Origin: Massilia sp. H6
GTDB taxonomy: Bacteria > Pseudomonadota > Gammaproteobacteria > Burkholderiales > Burkholderiaceae_D
DNA: 64,000 nt
Assembly (NCBI RefSeq): GCF_024802625.1
Contig: NZ_CP103371.1
Location: 2,046,001-2,110,000, forward strand
Reading direction: 5' to 3'
The notes under the pieces are model-generated. The model was not told the origin of the DNA, made no database searches, and saw only the letters and a list, made by a program, of their open reading frames with translations. Below, one piece after another: positions 54,202-58,948 of this stretch (position 1 is its first letter; each line of letters starts with the position of its first letter). The translations under genes and the position numbers were made by a program.

Positions 54202-54930
54202 ATGCGCGTACTGATCGTCGACGATGAACACCTGGCCCGCGCACTGTTGCGCGAGTTTCTCGGGGCCCATCCCGAGCTCGAGATTGTCGGCGAATGCGCC
54301 AACGGTTTCGAGGCCGTCAAGGCCATCGCCGAACTCGATCCCGAGCTCGTGTTCCTGGATATCCAGATGCCCAAGCTCGACGGCTTCGAAGTGGTCGAAC
54401 TGGCCGGTAGCAAGCCGCACTACATTTTTGCCACCGCTTATGACGGGTTCGCGCTGCGCGCCTTCGAGGTGCATGCGATCGATTACCTGCTCAAGCCCTT
54501 CAGTCGCGAGCGGCTCGCCCAGGCGTTGGGCCATGCGCGCAGCCGCGCCCGTCCGCAGGCGCAGATCGCGCACCTGGTGGCCGAAGCGGCCCAGCGCCAC
54601 GGCTATCTGGAGCGTGTGCTGATCAAGGATGGACCGCGCGTGCATGTGGTGCCGGCAGCCAGTATCGACTACATCGAGGCGCAGGACGATTACGTCCAGA
54701 TCAGCGCGGCCGGCAAGTCCTGGCTAAAAAATCAGCGCATGTCCGCACTCGAGACGCAGCTCGATCCGCAGATGTTCATCCGCATCCACCGCTCGTACAT
54801 CGTCAACGTCGGTTCGATCGCACGCATCGAACCTAGCAGCAAGGACAATTACTGCGCGGTGCTGAAAGAAGGCGTCACACTGCCGATCAGCCGCAGCGGC
54901 TACCAGAAGGTTCGCGAACTGATGCGCTAG
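54202..54930 (+). CDS. LytTR-family response regulator
   Basis: A 242-residue AlgR/LytR-type transcription factor. The receiver (1-120) has the acidic pair D8/D9 and the phospho-acceptor aspartate in LVFLDIQMPKLDGF (about residue 53), with lysine in DYLLKPFSRERL. The LytTR DNA-binding domain (about 138-240) has IDYIEAQDDYVQI, MFIRIHRSYIVNV and the end VTLPISRSGYQKV. It is paired with the LytS-type kinase. Its stop overlaps that of the convergent helicase gene by 4 bases. Confidence 0.93.
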   Translation: MRVLIVDDEHLARALLREFLGAHPELEIVGECANGFEAVKAIAELDPELVFLDIQMPKLDGFEVVELAGSKPHYIFATAYDGFALRAFEVHAIDYLLKPFSRERLAQALGHARSRARPQAQIAHLVAEAAQRHGYLERVLIKDGPRVHVVPAASIDYIEAQDDYVQISAAGKSWLKNQRMSALETQLDPQMFIRIHRSYIVNVGSIARIEPSSKDNYCAVLKEGVTLPISRSGYQKVRELMR

Positions 54931-57203
54931 GCCTGCAAGCAGGAAGGGCCATCGATGTCCCACCATGCCGGCAGCAGCGCGCGCACATCCGGCTTGCCGA
55001 AACGGTCATCGATCAGCCAGACCACCCCATGGTCCTGTTCGGTGCGGATCACGCGCCCGGCCGCCTGCACCACTTTCTGCATGCCGGGGTAGAGGTAGGT
55101 ATAGTCGTAGCCGGAGCCGAACATCGTCCCCATCCGCTGGCGCAGTTGCTCGTTTACCGGGTTCACCTGCGGCAGGCCGAGCGTGGCCACGAAGGCACCG
55201 ATCAAACGCGTGCCAGGCAAGTCGATGCCTTCGCCGAACGACCCGCCCAGTACTGCGAAGCCGACCCCGCGCCCCTCCAGCGTGAAGCGATCGAGGAAGC
55301 CGGCGCGTTCGGGCTCGCTCATGCGCCGCTCCTGGCGCCAGGCTGGCACACCCGGATGGCGCAGCGCGAGCTGCGTCAGCACTCCTTCCAGGTAGTCGAA
55401 GCTGCTGAAGAAGGCCAGGTAGTTGCCCGGCCTGGATGCGTACTGGCGCGCCACCAGGTCGGCGATCGGGGCGAGCGAGGCGGCGCGGTGCTGGTAGCGC
55501 GTCGAGATGCCGCCGGCAACGCGCACCTCCAGCTGGCAGGCGCGAAAGGGCGAGGCAACATCGGCCCAGGCGGTATTCGCAGGCATGCCGAGCAGGTCGC
55601 AGAAATAATGCCAGGGACTGAGCGTCGCCGAAAACAGCGTGATCGAATGCGCCAACGCGAAACGCGGTTTCAGGAAGGGCGCCGGCACCACGTTGCGAAT
55701 GCAGATCATCGAGTCGCGGGTGCCCGAGCGTGCCAGGTCGCACAGCGAATGCTCGCCGAAGGATTCTGCCAATCGCAGGAAACCCAGCGCGTCGAAATGG
55801 AAACGCTGCAGCTCGGGGTCGAGCGGTGCGGGCGCCTCGGCCAGGAAATCGTTGATGGCGCTGGTCGCGTTGTGCAGCGCGTCGATCAGCTTGGGAGGCA
55901 CTTCGCCCAGCACCTGGTAGGGGGCCGGGGCCTGCTTGTCGACGCCGGTCCAGGCGCGTCCGACGCGCTCCAGCGCCTTTTTCACGATCTCGGGAGCGTG
56001 CGCACGCGCAGCGCGCAAGCTGGCGCGATCCAGCTCGGCACTGTACATCGAGCGCGTACGCGACACCATGTTGTGGGCTTCATCGACCAGCACGCTGGTA
56101 CGCCAGCCGTTGTTCAGGGCAAGCGCGTACAGCATCGCGCCGCCGTCGAAATAATAGTTGTAGTCGCCTACCACCACGTCGGCCCAGCGCGCCATTTCGC
56201 TGCCCAGGTAATAGGGACAGACATCGTGCGCCAGCGCCACGCTGCGCAGCGCCTCGCGGTCGAGCAGCGCAAGCTGTGCGGCGCTAGTACGGGCAGCCGG
56301 CAGGCGGTCATAGAAACCCTTCGCGAGCGGGCAGGCGTCGCCGTGGCAAGCCTTGTCGGGATGCTCGCAAGCCTTGTCGCGCGCGGTCAGTTCCAGGACG
56401 CGCAGCGCAACTCCTGTCGCGCGCGTGAGGCTGGCGGTGGCATCGAGCGCAAGCCGCCGACCCGGCGTTTTCGCGGCCAGGAACAACACCTTGTCGAGGC
56501 GGTGCAGCGGCATCGCCTTCAGTGCCGGGAACAGGCTGCCGATCGTCTTGCCAATGCCGGTCGGCGCCTGGGCCAGCAGGCAGCGGCCACTGGTGTTGGC
56601 GCGATAGACGTTCTCTGCCAGCTCGCGCTGTCCGGGCCGGAAATGCGCGTGCGGGAAGGGCATCGCGGCCAGGCCGGCGTCGCGCGCCACCCGGTGCGCC
56701 GCTTCCATGGCAGCCCAGCGCGAGAACGCTTCGCACAACTGCGCGAACAGCGCGGCCAGGTCGGTCGCCGCCTGCGTCTCGCGCAGGACGGTTTCGTGGC
56801 CGCTGCCGATGTCGTAGTAGACCAGCGCCAGGTGTATCTGCGCCAGGCCCTGCTGCTGGCACAGCAGGTGGCCGTAGACCCGTAGCTGGGCCCAGTGCAG
56901 GTGGCGGTGGTTGTCGGGGATGGCGCTGAATTTGCCACGGTGGGTCTTGATTTCTTCGATCAGGTTCTGGTCCGGATCGTAGCCGTCGGCACGGCCGCGC
57001 ACGTGCAGGTTGCCCCAGTCGCCGCACAGCGATACTTCGGCTCGGTAGCTGCCGCCGCGCCGGCCTTGCACGACCGTGTGCCCTGCGATGCCCTCCTGGG
57101 CGGTGGGCGAAGGCGTAAAGCGCAGGTCGAGGTCGCCCGCCTTGGCGGTAAATTCGCATAGCGCCCGCACCGCCACGCTGTATTTCAGGCCAAGGTCGCT
57201 CAA
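54927..57203 (-). CDS. PD-(D/E)XK nuclease - XPD/DinG-like Fe-S helicase fusion
   Basis: A 758-residue DNA repair enzyme. The N-terminal 150 residues resemble a Cas4-like PD-(D/E)XK nuclease (HVRGRADGYD supplies the Asp, LIEEIKTHRG the E-x-K). The superfamily 2 helicase follows: Walker A QAPTGIGKTIGSLFPAL (about 217), four Fe-S-type cysteines (ACEHPDKACHGDACPLA and VCPYYLG), VLVDEAHNM (about 374), and a C-terminal QAAGRVIRTEQD. The start is the TTG at 57201-57203, overlapping the FAN1 stop as TTGA. A longer upstream frame carries no homology. The homologous pair occurs in Pseudomonas. Confidence 0.85.
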   Translation of the reverse strand: MSDLGLKYSVAVRALCEFTAKAGDLDLRFTPSPTAQEGIAGHTVVQGRRGGSYRAEVSLCGDWGNLHVRGRADGYDPDQNLIEEIKTHRGKFSAIPDNHRHLHWAQLRVYGHLLCQQQGLAQIHLALVYYDIGSGHETVLRETQAATDLAALFAQLCEAFSRWAAMEAAHRVARDAGLAAMPFPHAHFRPGQRELAENVYRANTSGRCLLAQAPTGIGKTIGSLFPALKAMPLHRLDKVLFLAAKTPGRRLALDATASLTRATGVALRVLELTARDKACEHPDKACHGDACPLAKGFYDRLPAARTSAAQLALLDREALRSVALAHDVCPYYLGSEMARWADVVVGDYNYYFDGGAMLYALALNNGWRTSVLVDEAHNMVSRTRSMYSAELDRASLRAARAHAPEIVKKALERVGRAWTGVDKQAPAPYQVLGEVPPKLIDALHNATSAINDFLAEAPAPLDPELQRFHFDALGFLRLAESFGEHSLCDLARSGTRDSMICIRNVVPAPFLKPRFALAHSITLFSATLSPWHYFCDLLGMPANTAWADVASPFRACQLEVRVAGGISTRYQHRAASLAPIADLVARQYASRPGNYLAFFSSFDYLEGVLTQLALRHPGVPAWRQERRMSEPERAGFLDRFTLEGRGVGFAVLGGSFGEGIDLPGTRLIGAFVATLGLPQVNPVNEQLRQRMGTMFGSGYDYTYLYPGMQKVVQAAGRVIRTEQDHGVVWLIDDRFGKPDVRALLPAWWDIDGPSCLQA

Positions 57204-58846
57204 GCAGCTTCTTGCCACTGCAAATAGCAGACCGACACCGGCATCTGGTGCGCGGCGCAGTAATCGATCCAGCGCACCTGGTTGTCCTGCAGGCGGTCGC
57301 CGGGACCTTTCACCTCGATCATGGTGTAGCGCTTTTCGGCAGGCCAGAACTGGATCAGGTCGGGGAAGCCGCACCGGTTGGCCTTGATGTCGGCCAGGAT
57401 GCGCTCGCACCACTTGCGCAGGTGCGCGGCCGGAATGCACTCCAGTGCCAGTTCGAGCAGGGCTGGGCTCAGCAGATCCCAGTGCACGAAAGGCGAGGCG
57501 ATGCCGGCCTTTTCGAGCAGGTGGCGGCGGATGATGTCGCGATAGCTGCCGTCGTCCAGCGCGCCCAGGCATTGCGCGAACTGCGCTGCGCGGCGCTGGT
57601 GGAAGTCAAGGCTGTACAAGTCGGCCGGTCCGCGGTGGAAGGGATGGAAAAAGGCGCCGGGAATGGGGGCGAAGATCGCGCGCCAGCACAGCAGGCCGAA
57701 CAGCGAATTGGCCAGCGCGTTCTCGACATAGAACACCGGCGCGTCTTCGGTGGCCAGGTGGTCGCGCACGACGCCTTCGACCCACCGTTCCCCGGCGGGC
57801 ATCGGCAAGCACAGTTCAAGGCGGCTGGCGGGGGCGTTGCGTTGCGGCGCCGGCTTCGCATGCCCCAGGCGGCGGGCCAGGCGCGGCGCGATGCGTAGCA
57901 GGTGCTGGCGTTCAGCCTCGTTTTCCGGTGCATCCTGCGCCTCGGTCAGCAAGGCGAAGGCTTGCGCGAAGCGCTCGTGCTTTTCCAGCACCCGGATCGC
58001 ACGCCCGCGGGCGCCGGGGAAGCGGCAGCGCGTATAGACCACGTGGGCATTGTCCCAGTCCCTGGCTTTTTCGTACTGCTGGCCGATCTGGAACAGCAGC
58101 TTTTCGCGGCGGCTTTCCAGCCAATCGTTGTCGAACACATGCGAGGGCAGGTCGCGCACGACCTCGTCGAGCGCCTCGCCGGCGTAGAAGCGTTCCTTGC
58201 AAGCGTGCAGGACAATGTACTGGTCGATGTCGCCGCGCGAGCGCAAGCCGCGCGAGGCATGGGAAATCTCGACCTGCTCGTAGCGGAACATGCCGAGGTC
58301 GGATAGCACGAATTCGGTCCAGTCCTGGCGCAAGTTGCCGAAAAAGATCAGGCGCAGCCGGTCGCACAGCGGTTTGACCCGGATGCGTAGCGCCGTGTCG
58401 GGACAATCGCGGTACCAGTCGGCGAACGGACGAGGGCCGGCAAACGTGGGGCTGAGCGCTTCGAGCAAGGCACTCTTGCGCGCATTTTTCTGGGGCAGGT
58501 GCGCGTGGAAGGCGGCGCCGATTTCGGGCTTGGACAACAGGTCGAACAGTTCCTCGAGCGAGAGACTGGGATTGGCCTCGACCCAGCCGGTGCCCAGCAA
58601 GGGGCGGGACGCCTCAAGCGGGCAGCCGATTTCGGCATAGGCGAGCTTGCTCGCGCGGAACAGGCTTCCCTTGCGCATGACCATGCGGACGAACAGCGCG
58701 CGCGCACTGCGGGGCAGTGCAGGAAATGCGGCCAGGAAGGCGAGCTCGTCGTCGCCGAGCAGATCGCGATAGCGTTCACCAATCCATTCCAGGACACGCT
58801 CGAAATTATCCAGATAGTAAAACTCGTTTTCCAGAACCCTGATCAT
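57200..58846 (-). CDS. FAN1-like VRR-NUC endonuclease
   Basis: A 548-residue structure-specific nuclease of the bacterial FAN1 type. The N-terminal and central helical regions (SAP-like and TPR-like, about 1-450) are followed by the VRR-NUC domain (about 490-548) with catalytic GFPDLIQFWP and IEVKGPGDRLQDNQ, i.e. the D and E-x-K of the PD-(D/E)XK set. FAN1 cuts 5' flaps and unhooks DNA interstrand crosslinks. The ATG at 58844-58846 lies just after a perfect SOS box. Its stop overlaps the helicase start, so the two proteins are coupled. Confidence 0.9.
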   Translation of the reverse strand: MIRVLENEFYYLDNFERVLEWIGERYRDLLGDDELAFLAAFPALPRSARALFVRMVMRKGSLFRASKLAYAEIGCPLEASRPLLGTGWVEANPSLSLEELFDLLSKPEIGAAFHAHLPQKNARKSALLEALSPTFAGPRPFADWYRDCPDTALRIRVKPLCDRLRLIFFGNLRQDWTEFVLSDLGMFRYEQVEISHASRGLRSRGDIDQYIVLHACKERFYAGEALDEVVRDLPSHVFDNDWLESRREKLLFQIGQQYEKARDWDNAHVVYTRCRFPGARGRAIRVLEKHERFAQAFALLTEAQDAPENEAERQHLLRIAPRLARRLGHAKPAPQRNAPASRLELCLPMPAGERWVEGVVRDHLATEDAPVFYVENALANSLFGLLCWRAIFAPIPGAFFHPFHRGPADLYSLDFHQRRAAQFAQCLGALDDGSYRDIIRRHLLEKAGIASPFVHWDLLSPALLELALECIPAAHLRKWCERILADIKANRCGFPDLIQFWPAEKRYTMIEVKGPGDRLQDNQVRWIDYCAAHQMPVSVCYLQWQEAA

Positions 58847-58858
58847 CTCATGTTGCCA

Positions 58859-58878
58859 TACTGTGCTTATGTACAGTA
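58859..58878. promoter_or_regulatory. LexA (SOS) box of the FAN1-helicase operon
   Basis: TACTGTGCTTATGTACAGTA has both conserved half-sites TACTGT and ACAGTA with the standard 8-base spacer, 12 bases upstream of the FAN1 start. A TATACT -10-like hexamer (minus strand, about 58877-58882) overlaps it, so LexA binding would block transcription. Confidence 0.88.
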
Positions 58879-58948
58879 TAGCCTCTCGAGGCGTCCGGCA
58901 TCCAGCACTATCCCGGTATTTCGCTGCCAGTGGTGGGTTTTCGCCACG

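Follow-up and report, generated by a model that had tools for sequence, protein, structure and literature searches.

Does a bacterial FAN1 nuclease work with a fixed helicase partner, and is the pair under the control of LexA? This question is raised by a 64,000-nucleotide stretch of the Massilia sp. H6 genome (contig NZ_CP103371.1, positions 2,046,001 to 2,110,000; hereafter the window), in which the gene for a FAN1 nuclease (57200-58846, minus strand, ATG start, 548 amino acids) is followed by the gene for an EndoDinG-type fusion of a nuclease and a helicase (54927-57203, minus strand, TTG start, 758 amino acids). Judged by coordinates, the FAN1 gene comes first and the helicase gene second on the same strand. 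We consider it probable that these genes form a two-gene unit under LexA repression that DNA damage switches on, and that FAN1 and EndoDinG work one after the other on interstrand crosslinks or on forks blocked in a similar way. The putative unit, including a four-base gene overlap and a LexA-type box, is conserved across the beta- and gammaproteobacteria.

Gene organisation and conservation

The two genes share the bases TTGA (57200-57203, minus strand), in which the FAN1 stop codon TGA overlaps the helicase start codon TTG. An earlier note on this DNA, made from the sequence alone, had described such an overlap of two repair genes, and both the coordinates and the shared bases are as it claimed. 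In the database version of the same helicase (P0003), translation starts at a CTG five residues past the TTG (57186-57203). The TTG is favoured over this later start because the NTGA overlap is conserved in relatives, which suggests that the P0003 annotation is short.

EndoDinG was detected in at least 591 loci, and the best 80 were compared; these come from Massilia, Herbaspirillum, Janthinobacterium, Duganella, Noviherbaspirillum, Collimonas, Pseudomonas, Stutzerimonas, Halomonas and others. In 72 of the 80, the gene directly upstream of EndoDinG, in the same orientation, is FAN1, and the eight misses include two loci (L196 and L207) in which the contig ends before the FAN1 position. A LexA-type box (CTGT-N8-[AC]CAG), sought between positions -150 and +15 relative to the FAN1 start, is present in 65 of the 72 pairs, where 200 dinucleotide shuffles gave a mean of 0.305 and a maximum of 3; 67 of the pairs retain the NTGA overlap. 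Because the 80 loci share species with the family and phylum genome samples described below, the counts from these sources are not independent.

The family sample comprises 97 genomes, that of Massilia sp. H6 included. FAN1 was found in 37 and a strong EndoDinG match in 56, and all 37 genomes with FAN1 have both (Fisher p = 5e-13, relatedness ignored). The two genes are adjacent by coordinates in 36 of these 37 (29 of them in loci that were read), and in the 37th they are split at contig ends. In the phylum sample of 349 genomes, FAN1 occurs in 43, EndoDinG in 35, both in 30 and the adjacent pair in 29 (Fisher p = 5e-28, relatedness ignored); every phylum FAN1 of at least 45% identity (30/30) is accompanied by EndoDinG. 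Across both samples, then, EndoDinG accompanies every FAN1 of this clade.

Box and overlap are preserved in these samples as well. The box precedes FAN1 in 24 of 30 family loci (the window's own included; shuffle mean 0.095) and in 18 of 27 further phylum loci (shuffle mean 0.06). For the overlap, 55 loci were considered, seven of which have no scorable N-terminal motif; all 48 remaining FAN1 stop codons are TGA, and an in-frame helicase start at the -4 offset is found in 46 of the 48, again counting the window's own. One genus has FAN1 in 25 of 25 genomes, and the 12 FAN1 loci read from it all contain a box within 160 bases upstream, with an NTGA overlap with the EndoDinG N-terminus in 11. 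FAN1 is also found directly beside EndoDinG on four Burkholderia replicons filed as plasmids.

Four loci of a single family, f17 (L116, L119, L121 and L122), have a different upstream sequence near the box position, for example CAATGGATAAATGAACAGTG, which is perhaps a variant of the LexA motif.

The LexA-type box

The window contains a perfect LexA-type (SOS) box, TACTGT-N8-ACAGTA, at 58859-58878; it is a palindrome, given here on the plus strand, where it reads in full TACTGT-GCTTATGT-ACAGTA, and the FAN1 ATG is 12 bases away. A perfect box 12 bases before the first start codon had been claimed, and the sequence and the position bear this out. Across the 4.53 Mb and three contigs of the genome, the strict pattern occurs six times, the box at FAN1 included, as against once for the reversed control, and because of this difference the perfect box at FAN1 is not a product of chance. 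When only the window is considered, the shorter CTGT-N8-ACAG core does not reach significance (two found against 0.54 expected, with 9 of 100 shuffles as good).

The other five perfect copies stand before dinB-, dnaE2-, imuA- and tyrosine-recombinase-like genes and near a glutamine-amidotransferase-like gene, all identities of genes beside the genome's boxes being judged by eye from the open reading frames (ORFs). Near-perfect boxes, among the matches listed, precede lexA (one mismatch) and recA (two boxes, one with a single mismatch and the other with two). Since such boxes precede the dinB-, dnaE2- and imuA-like genes, lexA and recA, the FAN1 box is of the genome's own SOS type. A possible -10 element, TATACT (58875-58880, minus strand), overlaps the box; it was picked out by eye and is unproven. 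A search for promoter hexamers returned one match only, within the first part of the coding region, and did not list TATACT, for which there is no convincing -35 element.

The perfect copy directly before the tyrosine recombinase/integrase-like gene (L267, C1:2505707-2505726) raises the possibility of an SOS-controlled integrase. The copy at C1:3883379-3883398 (L004/L013) lies near the glutamine-amidotransferase-like gene and a response-regulator-like ORF, with no obvious repair gene, and a box with one mismatch is found beside a short ORF on the 173-kb second contig (L020, C2:114759-114778).

The FAN1 protein

The product of the first gene has the full FAN1 architecture, with Pfam matches to FAN1_HTH (E = 4e-36), FANC_SAP (9e-17) and VRR_NUC (2e-34) in that order, all above the curated cut-offs. 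Residues 5-545 match the structures of Pseudomonas aeruginosa FAN1 (PaFAN1, the product of PA1865; PDB 4r89 and 5y7g) with E = 3e-201, a match over the whole length, and the two proteins have the HTH, SAP and VRR-NUC domains in common. The catalytic VRR_NUC domain spans residues 432-542 (57221-57553, minus strand) by Pfam and by alignment with PaFAN1, in which D496, E511 and K513 align with D507, E522 and K524, named as the catalytic residues of PaFAN1 in the available part of PMC9635880. This architecture, together with the retained catalytic D, E and K, confirms the VRR-NUC, FAN1-like nuclease that the earlier note had proposed. PaFAN1 is described in the same source as having 5' flap cleavage and 5'-3' exonuclease activity, and it is credited with crosslink unhooking in the available part of PMC12796719. 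A homologue with 93% identity to the PaFAN1 chain has 59% identity to the window FAN1.

The EndoDinG nuclease-helicase

The product of the second gene matches Finegoldia magna DinG (PDB 9kqh, E = 5e-108) over its full length, nuclease domain included, making this its closest solved relative. Pfam detects DEAD_2 and Helicase_C_2, and the AlphaFold2 model has a predicted local distance difference test (pLDDT) score of 86.8. For the first 180 residues, Pfam gives no match at expectation values up to 1. However, the predicted fold of this region is that of a PD-(D/E)XK nuclease, resembling RecE, AddA, EXO5, MGME1 and Cas4, and a RecB/Cas4-type nuclease domain is accordingly predicted for residues 1-180 (56664-57203, minus strand). 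The nuclease residues H42, E56, D73, E84 and K86 do not vary across alignments of 12, 46 and 37 sequences, the window's own included; Q106 and Y110 in this domain are also invariant. Further along the protein, the alignments of 12 and 46 sequences preserve four predicted 4Fe-4S ligands, C279, C286, C291 and C329 (56217-56369, minus strand), as well as the helicase motifs from the Walker A sequence PTGIGKT, with K219, to the DEAH box at residues 374-377 (56073-56564, minus strand). The predicted fold, the invariant nuclease residues and the four cysteines thus agree with the claim of a PD-(D/E)XK-like nuclease fused to an XPD/DinG-like iron-sulfur (Fe-S) helicase, and the picture of two nucleases and one Fe-S helicase in a single unit holds as well, with domains, overlap and box kept in relatives.

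The helicase had also been called FANCJ/XPD-like. Membership of the XPD family stands, but a specific identity with FANCJ is rejected, since the archaeal XPD (E = 2e-32) and human XPD (4e-25) profiles both score better than FANCJ (3e-22). A structure of an XPD-family helicase, PDB 8rev, has a chain labelled CHL1 and an entry title naming XPD stalled at a Y-fork with an interstrand crosslink; such a helicase is halted there by the very lesion that FAN1 would have to unhook.

DinG itself is damage-inducible, and the XPD-family helicase core is common to the window helicase, DinG of the Escherichia coli type and ExoDinG. However, four NCBIfam DinG/YoaA models give only 50-71 bits on the window helicase against cut-offs of 548-789, and the NCBIfam rad3 model gives 130 against a cut-off of 247. 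ExoDinG has, according to the EndoDinG review, a different exonuclease domain, unlike the PD-(D/E)XK domain found here. The protein fits the published EndoDinG subgroup, which is represented in the review by the Bdellovibrio type and includes the identical layout of Finegoldia magna DinG (9kqh). The Bdellovibrio EndoDinG is stated in the review, on unpublished data, to be an endonuclease. FAN1 and VRR are not mentioned in that review, whereas the EndoDinG of the window is the second gene of a FAN1 operon with a LexA-type box. The Massilia genome contains a second, weak match to the helicase, making two in total.

Expression evidence from Pseudomonas aeruginosa

Published transcriptomes of P. 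aeruginosa agree with induction of FAN1 by DNA damage. According to the available part of PMC12796719, a study of 2026, ultraviolet C (UV-C) induces 18 genes outside the known LexA, Prt and Alp regulons of strain PAO1, including PA1865 and PA1866; ciprofloxacin raises the expression of PA1865 as well, and hydrogen peroxide lowers it. Its authors conclude that regulatory layers are still to be discovered. In strain PA14 at half the inhibitory dose of ciprofloxacin, PA1865 is one of eight induced genes, with recA, recX, sulA, lexA and recN among the others (data of another group, cited in the available part of PMC8526614). In a genome with a FAN1 of 93% identity to the PaFAN1 chain, which belongs to the genus with FAN1 in 25 of 25 genomes and a box at all 12 loci read, the CTGT-N8-ACAG box ATCTGTATGCATGAACAGTA lies 32 bases before the aligned start. 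EndoDinG is the next gene, with 62% identity over the 490 residues in the locus, and a C precedes the TGA, hence the overlap differs. PA1866 is probably EndoDinG, and the LexA-type box offers an explanation for the damage induction of PA1865.

Proposed function and alternatives

The sequence itself shows the box, the overlap, the domains with intact active-site residues and the joint conservation of these features; from there we infer LexA binding, joint work on crosslinks and physical contact between FAN1 and EndoDinG. DNA damage would lead to cleavage of LexA and free the box, and the production of both proteins would be coupled via the overlap of stop and start codons. Helicases of the XPD family travel in the 5'-3' direction, and the EndoDinG motor, as a member with a predicted Fe-S cluster, is expected to do the same. 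It would open the duplex beside the lesion, while the protein's own nuclease domain would trim single strands, and FAN1 would thereby receive a 5' flap or a recessed 5' end. Incision by FAN1 beyond the crosslink would then unhook it. The leftover gap or break would then pass to recombination and translesion synthesis; a box of the kind found at FAN1 also precedes recA and the dinB- and imuA/dnaE2-like genes. A more far-reaching proposal can be put forward tentatively: that FAN1 and EndoDinG together make up a crosslink-unhooking machine of beta- and gammaproteobacteria, with direct LexA control and a fixed four-base overlap, and that this would supply the missing regulon assignment of PA1865 and probably PA1866.

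Several observations weigh against these proposals. PA1865 has been published as lying outside the known P. aeruginosa LexA regulon (PMC12796719, in the available part). The LexA-type box is absent from 6 of the 30 family loci, from 9 of the 27 further phylum loci and from 7 of the 72 pairs, with L229 and L252 among the last seven cut at a contig end. EndoDinG occurs without FAN1 in 19 of 56 family genomes and 5 of 35 phylum genomes, and relatives of 29-38% identity occur without FAN1 in Listeria, Enterococcus and Legionella records; because it is also found without FAN1, EndoDinG has a role of its own. Conversely, FAN1s of at most 38% identity, present in 13 of the 43 phylum genomes, have no EndoDinG in the genome at E = 1e-30, and no EndoDinG-related neighbour was found in the eight loci read of these 13. 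Because these distant FAN1s lack EndoDinG, the partnership belongs to one FAN1 clade. Finally, one genome (G344) has FAN1 and EndoDinG unlinked, with a box of two mismatches before FAN1.

Where FAN1 is missing, no other shared partner of EndoDinG was seen by eye in 15 of the 19 family loci (one, L090, is too short and three were unread) or in six further loci. A box precedes EndoDinG itself in 2 of these 15 family loci (L093 with one mismatch and L085 with two) and, 111 bases away, in one of the six further loci (L240). In L093, from a genome (G059) in which no FAN1 was found, the box lies 135 bases before EndoDinG, an arrangement that loss of FAN1 from beneath its promoter would leave behind.

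The strongest rival holds that this is a LexA-controlled repair operon for general processing of forks and flaps, such as stalled forks and end resection, after many kinds of damage, and that the two enzymes are no crosslink machine; this is possible, if on the unlikely side. It draws on the fact that neither UV-C nor ciprofloxacin, the inducers in P. aeruginosa, is a classical crosslinker, on the resemblance of the EndoDinG N-terminal domain to resection and end-processing enzymes, and on the many genomes in which EndoDinG is found without FAN1. However, since SOS induction is not damage-specific, these inducers cannot tell the substrates apart, and PaFAN1 has been described as a crosslink-unhooking nuclease (PMC12796719, in the available part).

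It is rather unlikely that FAN1 and EndoDinG share only a promoter and a history, each working alone in a pairing that is a convenience of the operon. Genomes with only EndoDinG or only a distant FAN1, and the genome in which both genes are kept unlinked, speak for such separate work. However, this reading sits poorly with the absence of any FAN1 without EndoDinG among the 37 family genomes or the 30 phylum FAN1s of at least 45% identity, and with the persistence of the four-base overlap across beta- and gammaproteobacteria.

An anti-phage or CRISPR (clustered regularly interspaced short palindromic repeats) type IV-associated DinG system, to which the PADLOC model PDLC01439 (typeIV_DinG) points by matching helicase residues 174-747, is very improbable and is set aside, given that this match is confined to the helicase part, that FAN1 has no PADLOC match, that the five flanking window ORFs scanned contain no Cas domain, and that the Fe-S domain of CasDinG is vestigial (no or one cysteine, according to the EndoDinG review) against four invariant cysteines here. 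Because the typeIV_DinG model matches this chromosomal EndoDinG helicase at 6e-115, automated annotation of defence systems may list helicases of this kind as CRISPR-associated. The domain scan of the five ORFs flanking the pair gave histidine kinase, LytTR regulator, peptidase or LiaF-like domains, or no domain. No case could be made for a mobile origin: 7 of the 13 plasmid-collection records with EndoDinG relatives are large Burkholderia, Cupriavidus or Caballeronia replicons, the four Burkholderia ones being those with FAN1 next to EndoDinG, and the phage collection has 16 records with EndoDinG relatives, of at most 37.7% identity in the 10 listed.

Relation to known systems

A VRR-NUC gene upstream of a helicase gene, as found here, has been reported for the T1p21 subfamily (PMC9635880, in the available part, referring to Iyer et al. 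2006). However, T1p21 is there a VRR-NUC subfamily separate from the FAN1 (KIAA1018) group. The combination of a nuclease with an XPD-family helicase is also shared with eukaryotic FAN1 and FANCJ/XPD, but the window helicase has its own fused nuclease domain and no specific relation to FANCJ, and the UBZ domain of human FAN1 is absent from the Pfam matches of the window FAN1. The available portions of the PaFAN1 literature mention neither a downstream EndoDinG nor a LexA box, both of which are present at the window FAN1, and the words helicase, operon and SOS do not occur in the main text of PMC4103454, on FAN1/VRR-NUC. Each component is known; no description of a FAN1-EndoDinG operon, of a LexA box before a bacterial FAN1, or of their conserved, overlapping pairing was found in the open-licence literature, which does not prove absence from print.

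Implications

Bacterial FAN1 serves as a structural model for a human crosslink-repair nuclease. With a conserved box and a constant helicase-nuclease neighbour, its regulation and its partnership become directly testable, and the pairing suggests biochemical reconstitution of FAN1 with EndoDinG instead of FAN1 alone. The little-studied EndoDinG group, in turn, gains a genomic partner.

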